Source of the DNA: a virus
Virus record (IMG/VR): IMGVR_UViG_3300025009_000036
Span: 1 to 41,376 of that record
DNA length: 41,376 bases
Direction: 5' to 3' (one strand)
Part shown: positions 6,077 to 11,479 of the stretch, piece by piece
Layout of the letters: each line of letters opens with the position of its first letter
How positions within the stretch are numbered: the stretch's first letter is position 1
Notes under the pieces: model-generated
Database searches by the model: none
What the model was told of the DNA's origin: nothing
The model's input: the letters and a program-made list of their open reading frames with translations, nothing else
Position numbers and translations under genes: made by a program

Positions 6077-6634
6077 ATGGCTACGCTAGAGACAAAGACT
6101 ATTTCAAACATTCGCGACCTTGACCCATGCTACGACCCAACCAAATATCTACCGGAGGACTGGACAGGTACGGCAATCGATGTACTGAAGGTCGAAGCCT
6201 GCCCCGCGGAGGATCGGCTATGGGTAGTGACGCAATGGCTGGACGACCGGACCAACCGCCTATTCGCGGTATGGTGCGCAAGGCAAGCACTCGCGCTAGT
6301 TGAAAATCCAGACCCGCGCAGCGTCAATGCCTGTGATGTAGCAGAACGCTATGCCAACGGCGATGTAGGAGAAACAGAGTTAGCCGCAGCCTGGGACGCA
6401 GCCAGGGACGCAGCCAGGGCCGCAGCCTGGGACGCAGCCAGGGCCGCAGCCTGGGACGCAGCCTGGGACGCAGCCAGGGACGCAGCCTGGGACGCAGCCT
6501 GGGCCGCAGCCAGGGCCGCAGCCTGGGACGCAGCCAGGGCCGCAGCCTGGGACGCAGCCAGGGACGCAGCCTGGGACGCACAAATCAAACACTTGATCGA
6601 GATGCTAGAGGAGGCCGCAAATGTCACCGATTAA
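6077..6634 (+). CDS. Immunity-like protein with (D/A)AA(W/R) tetrapeptide repeats
   Basis: 185 residues. The N-terminal 100 residues are globular (DRLWVVTQWLDD, RLFAVWCARQALALVENPDPRS, NACDVAERYANG). I recall this pattern from proteins often labelled 'putative immunity protein' in phage and bacterial genomes (memory, not a search). Residues about 103-166 are sixteen tandem tetrapeptides of the type D/A-A-A-W/R, which should form one long Ala-rich helix with Trp and Arg on one face, followed by a short tail. The start at 6077 has AAAGGA upstream, and the 3' end overlaps the next gene by 14 bases. The function of phage members is not established. Confidence 0.65.
   Translation: MATLETKTISNIRDLDPCYDPTKYLPEDWTGTAIDVLKVEACPAEDRLWVVTQWLDDRTNRLFAVWCARQALALVENPDPRSVNACDVAERYANGDVGETELAAAWDAARDAARAAAWDAARAAAWDAAWDAARDAAWDAAWAAARAAAWDAARAAAWDAARDAAWDAQIKHLIEMLEEAANVTD
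6383..6574 (+). repeat. Sixteen tandem 12-bp coding repeats
   Basis: The unit is G(A/C)CGCAGCC(T/A)GG. All sixteen units keep every base except the second (A or C) and the tenth (T or A), so each is one of four versions (DW, DR, AW, AR). There is no synonymous drift at any other position. The frame is kept by the 12-bp period, so slippage would change protein length without frameshift. Confidence 0.95.
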
Positions 6635-9752: not shown

Positions 9753-9925
9753 CCACCCTATACATTCCCCTTGACAACGACCGCCAGGCTGAGCTAACCG
9801 TACCCGACGAGCTGAACACCCGCGAGTATTATGACATGCTCCGCTGGATACTCGACCACAAGTACAACCTGATCGAGGTACACATACCGCCTGAGTTTAA
9901 GGTAAAGGGCGCGGCTACAAAGTAA
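9749..9925 (+). CDS. Small hypothetical protein (58 aa)
   Basis: A 58-residue product, MTTLYIPLDNDRQAELTVP at the N-terminus, then a helix (EYYDMLRWILDHKYNL) and a final strand (IEVHIPPEF). The beta-alpha-beta pattern and the ATGA overlap with the upstream gene support it as real. It is the last gene before the promoter and leader RNA of the replication genes. Function unknown. Confidence 0.65.
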   Translation: MTTLYIPLDNDRQAELTVPDELNTREYYDMLRWILDHKYNLIEVHIPPEFKVKGAATK

Positions 9926-9928
9926 ATA

Positions 9929-9937
9929 TGTTATAAT
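9929..9937 (+). promoter_or_regulatory. Extended -10 promoter P2 (leader RNA and replication genes)
   Basis: TGTTATAAT carries the extended -10 TG followed one base later by a perfect TATAAT (9932-9937). The 17-bp-spaced -35 position is not consensus, as is usual for extended -10 promoters. The predicted start is near 9944, which is exactly the first base of the structured leader. Confidence 0.72.
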
Positions 9938-9943
9938 AATTAA

Positions 9944-10044
9944 GCTGAGGGTATAAGGTAGGCAGCGAATCGCCGTTTGTTTCCTGCACCCTCAGCAAGT
10001 GCCTACCGGGAAATAAGCGGCGGTTTGCTATAAGGACAAACAAC
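9944..10044 (+). ncRNA. Structured leader RNA with interlocking complementary segments
   Basis: Three pairs of complementary segments occur in the order a-b-c-a'-b'-c'. Pair a: GCTGAGGGT (9944-9952) with 9988-9996, nine Watson-Crick pairs. Pair b: GGTAGGCA (9957-9964) with 10000-10007, eight pairs. Pair c: 9964-9986 with 10007-10029, 23 consecutive pairs, 18 Watson-Crick and five G-U. Since c cannot coexist fully with a and b, the RNA can adopt alternative folds. In addition GTTTG (10023-10027) can pair with CAAAC (10037-10041), placing the ribosome site AAGGA (10032-10036) in a loop that competes with the base of helix c. It probably controls translation of the replication gene at 10045, or acts as a separate small RNA. 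It matches no RNA family that I can name. Confidence 0.65.
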
Positions 10045-10836
10045 ATGAGTTCTTTTCAATGGTGGCGATCATGGCATGACGCGCCTACTGACCACAAGTG
10101 GCCAGTAGTGGCCGCCCGCGCTGGTGTAAAAGTGGGAGAGGTATCGGCGGTAGCATGGGCGCTGATGGATTACGCGAGCCAGCACAAAGAGCGCGGTACA
10201 GTCATTGGCTTTGATACCGAAGTCTACGCAATTTATTCGGGCTTTCCAGAAGGCGAAGTTATAGCCATCATTCAGGCAATGAGCGACAAGGGTATTATTG
10301 CCGAGGGAAAGTTTACCAATTGGGAGAAACGCCAACCGAAGCGAGAGGACAACAGCACCGAACGTGTAAGGGATTGGCGGGATATGAAACGCAATGAAAC
10401 GCAGTGTAACGCAGATGCAGAAGAAGTAACGTTTGACTCTCCTCTACCTCTACTCTATTCTGACTCTGTATCTGTATCTAACTCTGACTCTGACTCTGAA
10501 TCTACCGCATTTCAAGAAAATTTACTTAGCACCGCATTCGTACAAGCCAGCTCCATTATTCCTCACAGCCTGGACAAGTGGGCAAGAGCATTAGACGCAA
10601 TCAAAAAGACAGGAGCCACACCAGAAGATGTGACCACCGCGGTTACCGAACTTCGGGACAGGGGATACAACATATCCGGCCCATGGTCAATACAGAACGC
10701 GGTAATCATGGCAAAGGGGAAGCGTGAGAGACCACCAAGCCCCGCCAGAAGCAACGGCAAGAAAACATTACAAGAAGATATGGAAGCCCTAAGAAAATGG
10801 GCGGAAGAAAAGGAGTCGCAGGATGTCAACCCCTAA
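10045..10836 (+). CDS. Replication initiator-like protein (O/DnaD-N-like)
   Basis: 263 residues. The N-terminal 100 residues (FQWWRSWHDAPTDHKW..VAARAGVKVGEVSAVAWALMDYASQ...GFPEGEVIAIIQAMSDKGII) have the winged-helix pattern of phage replisome organisers such as lambda O-like or DnaD-N proteins, which bind the phage origin. The middle (residues about 139-154) is a Ser-Asp-rich linker encoded by hexamer repeats. The C-terminal part (about 170-225) is a small helical domain. AAGGA at 10032-10036 precedes the ATG. The next gene, overlapping by 14 bases, looks like its helicase-loader partner, as in O/P pairs. Origin recognition is inferred from family resemblance and neighbours. Confidence 0.65.
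   Translation: MSSFQWWRSWHDAPTDHKWPVVAARAGVKVGEVSAVAWALMDYASQHKERGTVIGFDTEVYAIYSGFPEGEVIAIIQAMSDKGIIAEGKFTNWEKRQPKREDNSTERVRDWRDMKRNETQCNADAEEVTFDSPLPLLYSDSVSVSNSDSDSESTAFQENLLSTAFVQASSIIPHSLDKWARALDAIKKTGATPEDVTTAVTELRDRGYNISGPWSIQNAVIMAKGKRERPPSPARSNGKKTLQEDMEALRKWAEEKESQDVNP
10459..10506 (+). repeat. Hexamer repeats TCTGAC-like within the initiator gene
   Basis: Eight consecutive 6-bp units beginning TCT (TCTGAC, TCTGTA, TCTGTA, TCTAAC, TCTGAC, TCTGAC, TCTGAA, TCTACC) encode Ser-Asp/Val/Asn/Glu/Thr dipeptides. They are preceded by CCTCTA-type units from 10441. In lambda-like phages the origin lies inside the initiator gene, so these are origin (iteron) candidates. A plain low-complexity linker is the alternative. 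Confidence 0.6.
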
Positions 10837-11479
10837 AGATATTGCAGTGATCCTATCGAAGTTCAAGGCGGCGTTCCCGAACTATGACCCTTCGGATATA
10901 GCCTCCGCCGCCGAAGTATGGCACGAGGCACTAGGACACATTGATGCCGACGAACTTAAGGCAGCGGCCATGGCTTGCATGACAGAACAAAACCGCGCCT
11001 TTGCCCCATCGGTAGGTGAAGTCATCGGCGCGGTAATGCGCTTACGTGCTCAGGCATCCGGGCTACCATCGGCGGCCGAAGCGTGGGGACAGATCAACCA
11101 ACCTCGCCTTGTGCGAGACGTGCTTTGCCCTGGTGGAGTAGCACTTTATGAAGATGTGTTTAAGGCGCAAGACAACGGCGCCGAATACAATCGCACGCTA
11201 AAGATGTATCAGCTCCATCGCTTCGACTGTCACGAGTGTAGACAGGAACTGTCACGCCTGGACATTCACCCGTTGGTAGAGCGCGTGGCACGGCAATTCG
11301 GCTGGCCTGACCACTTCCCAGGCGACAACCCAGAGGCAGACAGGGCGCATTTCATCCGAGCCTATGAAACAGAAGTAAGGCGCGAGACCGAGCGGCAGGC
11401 TCAGCCGGAACCCGTACAAAAATATGTGGAGGCTACGAGGAATACCATCAATAGGTTAGCGGAGGGAATGAGGAAATGA
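10823..11479 (+). CDS. Helicase-loader-like replication protein
   Basis: 218 residues. The N-terminal half (ILSKFKAAFPNYDPSDIASAAEVWHEALGHIDADELKAAAMACMTEQNRAFAPSVGEV) matches the helical pattern I know from phage helicase loader/inhibitor (G39P-like) N-domains: a short-repeat helical fold ending in FAPSVGE. A later HRFDCHECRQEL segment could bind metal. The charged C-terminal helix (TRNTINRLAEGMRK) may contact the helicase. With the preceding initiator it would bring host DnaB-type helicase to the phage origin, since no helicase is encoded here. It overlaps its neighbours by 14 and 4 bases. Confidence 0.55.
   Translation: MSTPKDIAVILSKFKAAFPNYDPSDIASAAEVWHEALGHIDADELKAAAMACMTEQNRAFAPSVGEVIGAVMRLRAQASGLPSAAEAWGQINQPRLVRDVLCPGGVALYEDVFKAQDNGAEYNRTLKMYQLHRFDCHECRQELSRLDIHPLVERVARQFGWPDHFPGDNPEADRAHFIRAYETEVRRETERQAQPEPVQKYVEATRNTINRLAEGMRK

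Follow-up and report, generated by a model that had tools for sequence, protein, structure and literature searches.

What is the structured RNA leader in front of this phage replication initiator for? The window, by which we mean the whole stretch of DNA analysed here, is the record of an uncultivated virus and is 41,376 bases long. Its leader is housed in a 119-bp non-coding gap between a 58-aa open reading frame (ending at 9925) and the start of the initiator gene at 10045. The initiator (10045–10836, + strand) is O-like and matched phrog_3729 (replication initiation protein, E 7.9e-11), and its end is overlapped by the start of a G39P/lambda P-like helicase loader gene (10823–11479, + strand). 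The analysis below leads us to suggest that the ~100-nt 5′ leader may well be a co-transcriptional two-state switch placed before the initiator and helicase-loader genes, a reading to which we give a probability of roughly one half.

The locus and its promoter

A putative extended −10 promoter with no −35 element (TGTTATAAT, 9929–9937, + strand) was recognised by sequence match just before the leader, where the original prediction had placed a promoter of this kind. The motif TGNTATAAT has a single match in the whole window, and this lies in the gap before the leader. As 1.66 matches are expected by chance on both strands, the existence of a match is uninformative, but its position is informative, as the chance expectation is ~0.001 per 60 nt on one strand. 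Deduced from the promoter spacing, the predicted transcript start is 9944.

Within the initiator gene, a CT-rich run of short repeats (CTCTACCTCTACTCTATTCTGACTCTG..., 10438–10504) encodes a Ser/Asp linker and could, as in the lambda O gene, be a replication origin. Elsewhere in the window, the open reading frame at 6077–6634 contains a very GC-rich Ala/Trp/Asp repeat (AAWDAARDAAW...) around 6380–6600; on both strands, no other region of the window is predicted to fold as stably.

Three segments and their complements cross

Segment a (9944–9952; all segments are on the + strand) opens the predicted transcript and is complementary to a′ (9988–9996) over 9 Watson–Crick pairs. Segment b (9957–9964) is complementary to b′ (10000–10007) over 8 Watson–Crick pairs. 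The 5′ arm of helix c (9964–9986) and its 3′ arm, c′ (10007–10029), form 23 pairs, of which five are G-U (at 9967, 9970, 9976, 9979 and 9985). Every pair was re-checked, and the original prediction was correct in the lengths and positions of the three helices, in the five wobbles and in the order a b c a′ b′ c′, which makes the helices cross. Segments b and c have one base in common on each side (9964 and 10007), and because no linker joins b to c on either side, b:b′ and a complete c:c′ are sterically exclusive; a:a′ together with c:c′ is at most a strained possibility.

The end of c′ (GUUUGCU, 10023–10029) is a near-duplicate of GUUUGUU (9975–9981), and both are partners for AGCGAAU (9964–9970). 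Two near-identical strands for one partner are what a strand-exchange switch usually shows. Directly after c′, positions 10030–10041 read AUAAGGACAAAC, which has no U-run, and the Shine–Dalgarno (SD) sequence AAGGA (10032–10036, + strand) begins two bases past c′ and can pair with 10049–10054.

The structure exceeds chance and is specific to one strand

No uninterrupted helix on either strand of the window is longer than helix c (23 pairs; the runner-up has 18), and the longest helix in 1,643,848 bases of related loci, both strands counted, was 19. In 1,500 dinucleotide shuffles of 9944–10044 the longest helix was 16, seen once, and the minimum free energy of the whole leader had a z of −3.6. 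With the 5′ segment and loop of c given, a Watson–Crick helix of at least 9 pairs appeared in 0.2% of shuffles, and a helix of 9 accompanied by a disjoint one of 7 in 0 of 20,000. By all computational tests run, the structure is real.

It had been argued from the five wobble pairs, with a chance of 1 in 7,800, that RNA rather than DNA is under selection here. That figure is inflated and partly circular, because a helix that is extended through allowed pairs departs from Watson–Crick pairing solely by G-U; by our estimate, if a DNA inverted repeat decayed with a bias to transitions, about one-third of the changes would be G-U in any case. The strand asymmetry is a sounder argument for RNA than the wobble count. 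The helix c region folded to −36.8 kcal/mol on the + strand and −20.7 kcal/mol on the − strand, and this strand specificity supports the claim itself.

Two predicted, competing folds of the growing transcript

Growing transcripts were folded from 9944, and the best fold at each sampled 3′ end was used to call between two structures, S1 and S2. S1 (9944–9996, + strand) is an early hairpin of about −27 to −28 kcal/mol closed by a:a′; S2 (9964–10029, + strand) is the 23-pair helix c. S1 was best for each sampled prefix ending from ~9994 to ~10024, and S2 was best from 10027 on, once c′ is complete. Above the a:a′ base of S1, 9958–9962 (within segment b) pairs with 9983–9987 and then 9964–9970 pairs with 9975–9981. 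The 5′ arm of c is thus consumed within S1, where it folds on itself, and pairs with c′ in S2. S1 is a predicted feature absent from the original account, a long hairpin that forms early and has a:a′ at its foot. By closing S1 and burying the 5′ arm of c in this way, a:a′ would give segment a a role beyond crossing.

Both folds were stronger than expected from composition (z −5.05 for S1 and −6.6 for S2; each was matched by 0 of 1,000 shuffles), and 0 of 3,000 joint shuffles reached both. Comparable paired energies occurred in 20 of 41,290 sampled windows, confined to two stretches of 69–79% GC. Of the five bases that wobble in helix c, three (9976, 9979 and 9985) form Watson–Crick pairs in S1, as one would expect of a strand that has to fit two folds. 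S2 and the closure of S1 by a:a′ both persisted when a second parameter set was used and at 25 °C, while the inner pairs of S1 shifted with the parameter set; the last three sets gave identical numbers and were treated as one.

The calculated saddle lies ~30 kcal/mol above S1, in a barrier calculation that takes no account of routes through pseudoknots. Neighbouring structures can exchange strands quickly in vivo by branch migration (PMC2817708), and given this the lifetime of S1 may be short. When transcription begins further upstream, the longer transcript can have its minimum at S1 instead of S2. An upstream stretch (9883–9891, CATACCGCC) can pair with 10019–10027 of c′, and read-through transcripts may prefer S1. 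As a feature that favours S1 this pairing was not significant, with 13% of shuffled upstream sequences doing likewise.

By prediction, then, the leader has two strong and mutually exclusive folds, of which the upstream one forms first, and this places it in the mechanistic class of co-transcriptional switches. The original suggestion of an RNA switch gains support from S1, which is predicted as an independent, above-chance hairpin that competes with helix c. The position of the leader, preceded by the promoter and followed at once by the initiator, also speaks for a switch.

Helix c might instead be a plain RNase III processing site, or a hairpin that protects the mRNA of an early operon, with S1 and the other pairs incidental. 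The early leaders of phages often contain RNase III sites, and 23 uninterrupted pairs, in the longest helix of the window, would make a good substrate. What this explanation leaves unexplained is S1, with its z of −5.05, and the perfect complementarities of a and b (0 of 20,000 shuffles), and we consider it unlikely.

Relatives of the leader and of its initiator

A search of the window with Rfam 15 gave 0 matches at the gathering threshold, confirming that no known RNA family matches the leader; the sub-threshold matches were to microRNA hairpins only and reflect the long stem. No terminator-like site was found near the leader on the + strand. Searches for DNA similarity of the window in phages found nothing, the exact a′-b′ pattern had no match in IMG/VR, and the initiator and terminase, used as single-protein queries, found no close relatives. 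A profile of the initiator N-terminus recovered 552 relatives in IMG/VR (80 of which were kept) and 54 in bacterial genomes. The best of these were 54% identical and have no comparable leader. The leaders of the nearest initiator relatives (L011–L018, L091 and L147–L151) were mostly coding up to the start codon and contained no comparable helix. The leader data therefore come from one sequence, and its pairs rest on prediction rather than on covariation.

In the leader of one initiator relative (L013, 2880–3010), a TTGACA-like promoter accompanies a non-coding gap of 98 nt. Helices of 7 bp in this gap could form a pseudoknot of the type x y x′ y′ that reaches the SD; by a rough estimate it did not exceed chance.

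R1, a covarying RNA family in other phages

Two of the longest helices among the relatives' loci (L067 and L087) lie just upstream of initiators, and L279 provided a third. A search pattern was made from these three, followed by a covariance model, R1. R1 comprises 15 copies of ~125 nt each, all in uncultivated phages: L302 303–420 (−), L304 5011–5141 (−), L306 4143–4264 (−), L307 5175–5304 (+), L308 9366–9488 (−; the same as L087), L310 14476–14602 (−; the same as L067), L311 12887–13011 (−), L312 1901–2029 (+), L316 5790–5918 (+), L318 721–850 (−), L322 1225–1363 (+), L230 747–863 (+), L394 6370–6490 (−), and two in L321, 12569–12687 (+) and 7006–7128 (−), one of which is L279.

A promoter directly precedes R1. 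The loop of its 5′ hairpin carries a (UUGGNNN), which pairs with a′ (NNNCCAA), and b, directly 5′ of c, pairs with b′ in the loop of an inner hairpin, an interaction missing in one of 13 copies (L316). Helix c has ~19 pairs and is followed in nearly all copies by U7-8CG, forming an intrinsic terminator. In an alignment of 13 copies, 97.7% of pair cells were standard and 26 of the 34 pairs showed changes on both sides. The crossing helix a:a′ was 100% paired in these copies, with compensatory changes at both variable positions, and b and b′ from the same copy paired better than permuted combinations (0 of 20,000 permutations did as well). The search pattern limited two positions of the a/a′ motif to classes that also allow mismatches, and the second copy in L321 (UUGGAAU/AUUCCAA) and L394 fall outside these classes; the covariation of R1 is thus not an artefact of the pattern. 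By inspection, in 8 of 13 copies a:a′ closed the best fold of the RNA that precedes c′.

The genes downstream of R1 encode replication initiators (O-like, Phg_2220_C, DUF1376 and Lin1244_N) and, once, recT. In some copies a small open reading frame or an HNH gene lies between R1 and the initiator, and in L316, L318, L322 and L302 the first genes are of other types or have no assigned type. Three copies precede an initiator homologous to that of the window. R1 has the appearance of a terminator that acts conditionally in the early operons of phages.

The copy at L321 7006–7128 (−) is the second in one phage and lies upstream of a recT-like gene, with a motif that is altered and perfectly paired. 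Two operons of this phage therefore start with one and the same element, in the manner of nut or put sites. In L316, L318 and L322 a conserved stretch like ACTCCRCACGTTAGYAAGRGC is found shortly past the U-run of R1, with the first gene ~270 nt further on; this stretch is possibly a second element.

When 12 R1 copies were scanned against Rfam, there was no element match at the gathering threshold. The R1 model found no credible member in 6 bacterial genomes, and neither did the R1 pattern, in two orders, in 794 bacterial genomes, where its two matches were by pattern alone. A similarity search with three copies found none in annotated phages, and a looser pattern returned 98 stretches, from which the model accepted one new member. 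R1 is apparently an undescribed phage RNA family with very strong covariation and no Rfam match in the copies scanned. It mostly heads phage replication operons with several types of initiator, as well as a recT operon in one phage, and is a possible early-operon attenuator. We regard it as the most valuable by-product of the leader analysis.

The leader compared with R1 and with known systems

The window leader is not a member of R1, and has position and principle in common with it: in both, a promoter is followed by two short helices that cross a long last one, and then by a replication gene. The R1 covariance model found none in the window at E ≤ 10, and its best score with filters off was −1.2 bits. 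The UUGGNNN/NNNCCAA motif, which in R1 joins the loop of hairpin 0 with a mid-loop, is not found in the window, where a and a′ are GCUGAGGGU and ACCCUCAGC, and the U-run that follows c′ in R1 is likewise absent. The order in R1 is a b c b′ a′ c′, as against a b c a′ b′ c′ in the window, and R1 has extra hairpins (0, 1 and 2) that the window lacks.

If the R1 elements are attenuators, with a:a′ and b:b′ working against a terminator hairpin, a decayed or divergent one, which has lost its U-run or relies on pausing, could have left such a leader. The succession of promoter, structured leader and replication initiator is the same, and there are again three crossing helices, with b directly 5′ of c and a near the transcript start. 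The differences listed above, including the lack of the UUGG/CCAA motif, of hairpins 0 and 2 and of a U-run, the other order of a′ and b′ and the failure of the R1 model to match, make such kinship improbable in our view. The conserved three-helix arrangement in R1 nevertheless makes the general idea of a switch in the window leader more plausible. It is possible, and here we are tentative, that the window leader and R1 are independent forms of one device, in which crossing helices time or meter the expression of phage replication genes. In such a device, interlocked helices in the first 100–130 nt would fold in the order of transcription, with no protein regulator.

Several known leaders are related in principle. 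In P1 and P7 (C4, RF01695) and in the CI immunity RNAs of P4, complementary a/b segments of phage leaders govern early or replication genes; the window has no Rfam match to C4, whose processing signals and duplicated target were not seen there. Attenuators of the pT181/inc18 type consist of alternative hairpins directly before plasmid replication initiator (rep) genes, but have at their end a terminator that an antisense RNA controls, whereas the window leader has no terminator. The IsrK leader of the Gifsy-1 prophage (isrK-orf45-anrP) can adopt a fold that is active in translation or a silent one (PMC4825925). The window leader resembles it in having two alternative folds, but IsrK has a terminator and a trans-acting short RNA, neither of which was seen here. 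The hairpin and U-run of an intrinsic-terminator attenuator, whether pT181-like or IsrK-like, are thus absent from the window leader. Slow folding serves as kinetic control in the leader of the MS2 maturation (A) gene (Poot et al. 1997, cited in PMC6071253). There an early fold is reported to delay the inhibitory equilibrium fold and to limit expression to young RNA, which is the likeness to the proposed working of the window leader. MS2 is an RNA phage, with long-distance pairing over the SD itself, and its control was shown experimentally, whereas that of the window leader is predicted.

A proposed mechanism and its output

We propose the following course for the two-state switch. Once 9996 has been transcribed, the 5′ end is predicted to fold into S1, with a:a′ closed and the 5′ arm of c buried. 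Next, b′ would capture b from CCUGC (9983–9987), which would bare a toehold at the top of c. Finally, c′ would invade by strand displacement to give S2; the end point of this step is predicted, and its route is one that we infer. The order a b c a′ b′ c′ could then be understood as a sequence of successive strand displacements, in the order of transcription. An RNA or protein that acts in trans could tip the balance between the folds.

In the predicted folds, the ~30 bases before the SD are single-stranded in S1, and in S2 they lie in the 23-bp helix that ends two bases from the SD. We favour S1 as the on state and S2 as the off state, because these bases are free in S1 and in S2 are helical, as in an RNase III substrate; the reverse polarity is possible. 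The least certain part of the proposal is what would follow. In S1 the unpaired bases could serve as a ribosome standby site, and in S2 the helix, so close to the SD, could be a good substrate for RNase III. The initiator would then be made mainly on young transcripts, declining as the leader refolds, and the leader would act as a kinetic limiter. This translational output is weakly grounded. The accessibility of the SD and the AUG is predicted to be equal in S1 and S2, because AAGGAC also pairs with GUUCUU downstream. In both states the SD is predicted to be mostly paired, in a hairpin of 10032–10037 with 10049–10054. The original prediction had the SD in the loop of a small hairpin that competes with the base of helix c; the pairing of the SD with 10049–10054 in both states leaves such competition little predicted effect.

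The remaining explanations fare worse than those considered above. A separate small RNA or an antisense copy-number control element, both raised in the original prediction, would agree with a strong structure of small-RNA size near a replication gene, and with complementary segments that could pair between molecules. However, neither a U-run nor any other terminator follows c′, and the leader continues straight into the SD, so that a separate small RNA is not supported. Antisense control, for which there was no specific evidence, needs an opposing transcript, and the − strand folds much worse. We find either form quite improbable. The inverted repeats do adjoin the replication initiator and could act as DNA, for instance as operators or a replication origin, but the five G-T positions weaken a DNA palindrome and not an RNA helix, the strand asymmetry is strong and three interlocked repeats are unlike any simple dimer site, all of which makes a role at the DNA level very improbable. 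Equally hard to credit is a structure with no function, for although the closest relatives of the initiator have no such leader and conservation is not demonstrable, three separate significant features occur in one 119-bp non-coding gap.

If the two-state switch is true, the timing of phage DNA replication would be set in part by the order of folding in the initiator's own leader RNA. The leader, whose three short complementarities follow one another as transcription proceeds, would also be a designed-looking test case for co-transcriptional strand displacement.
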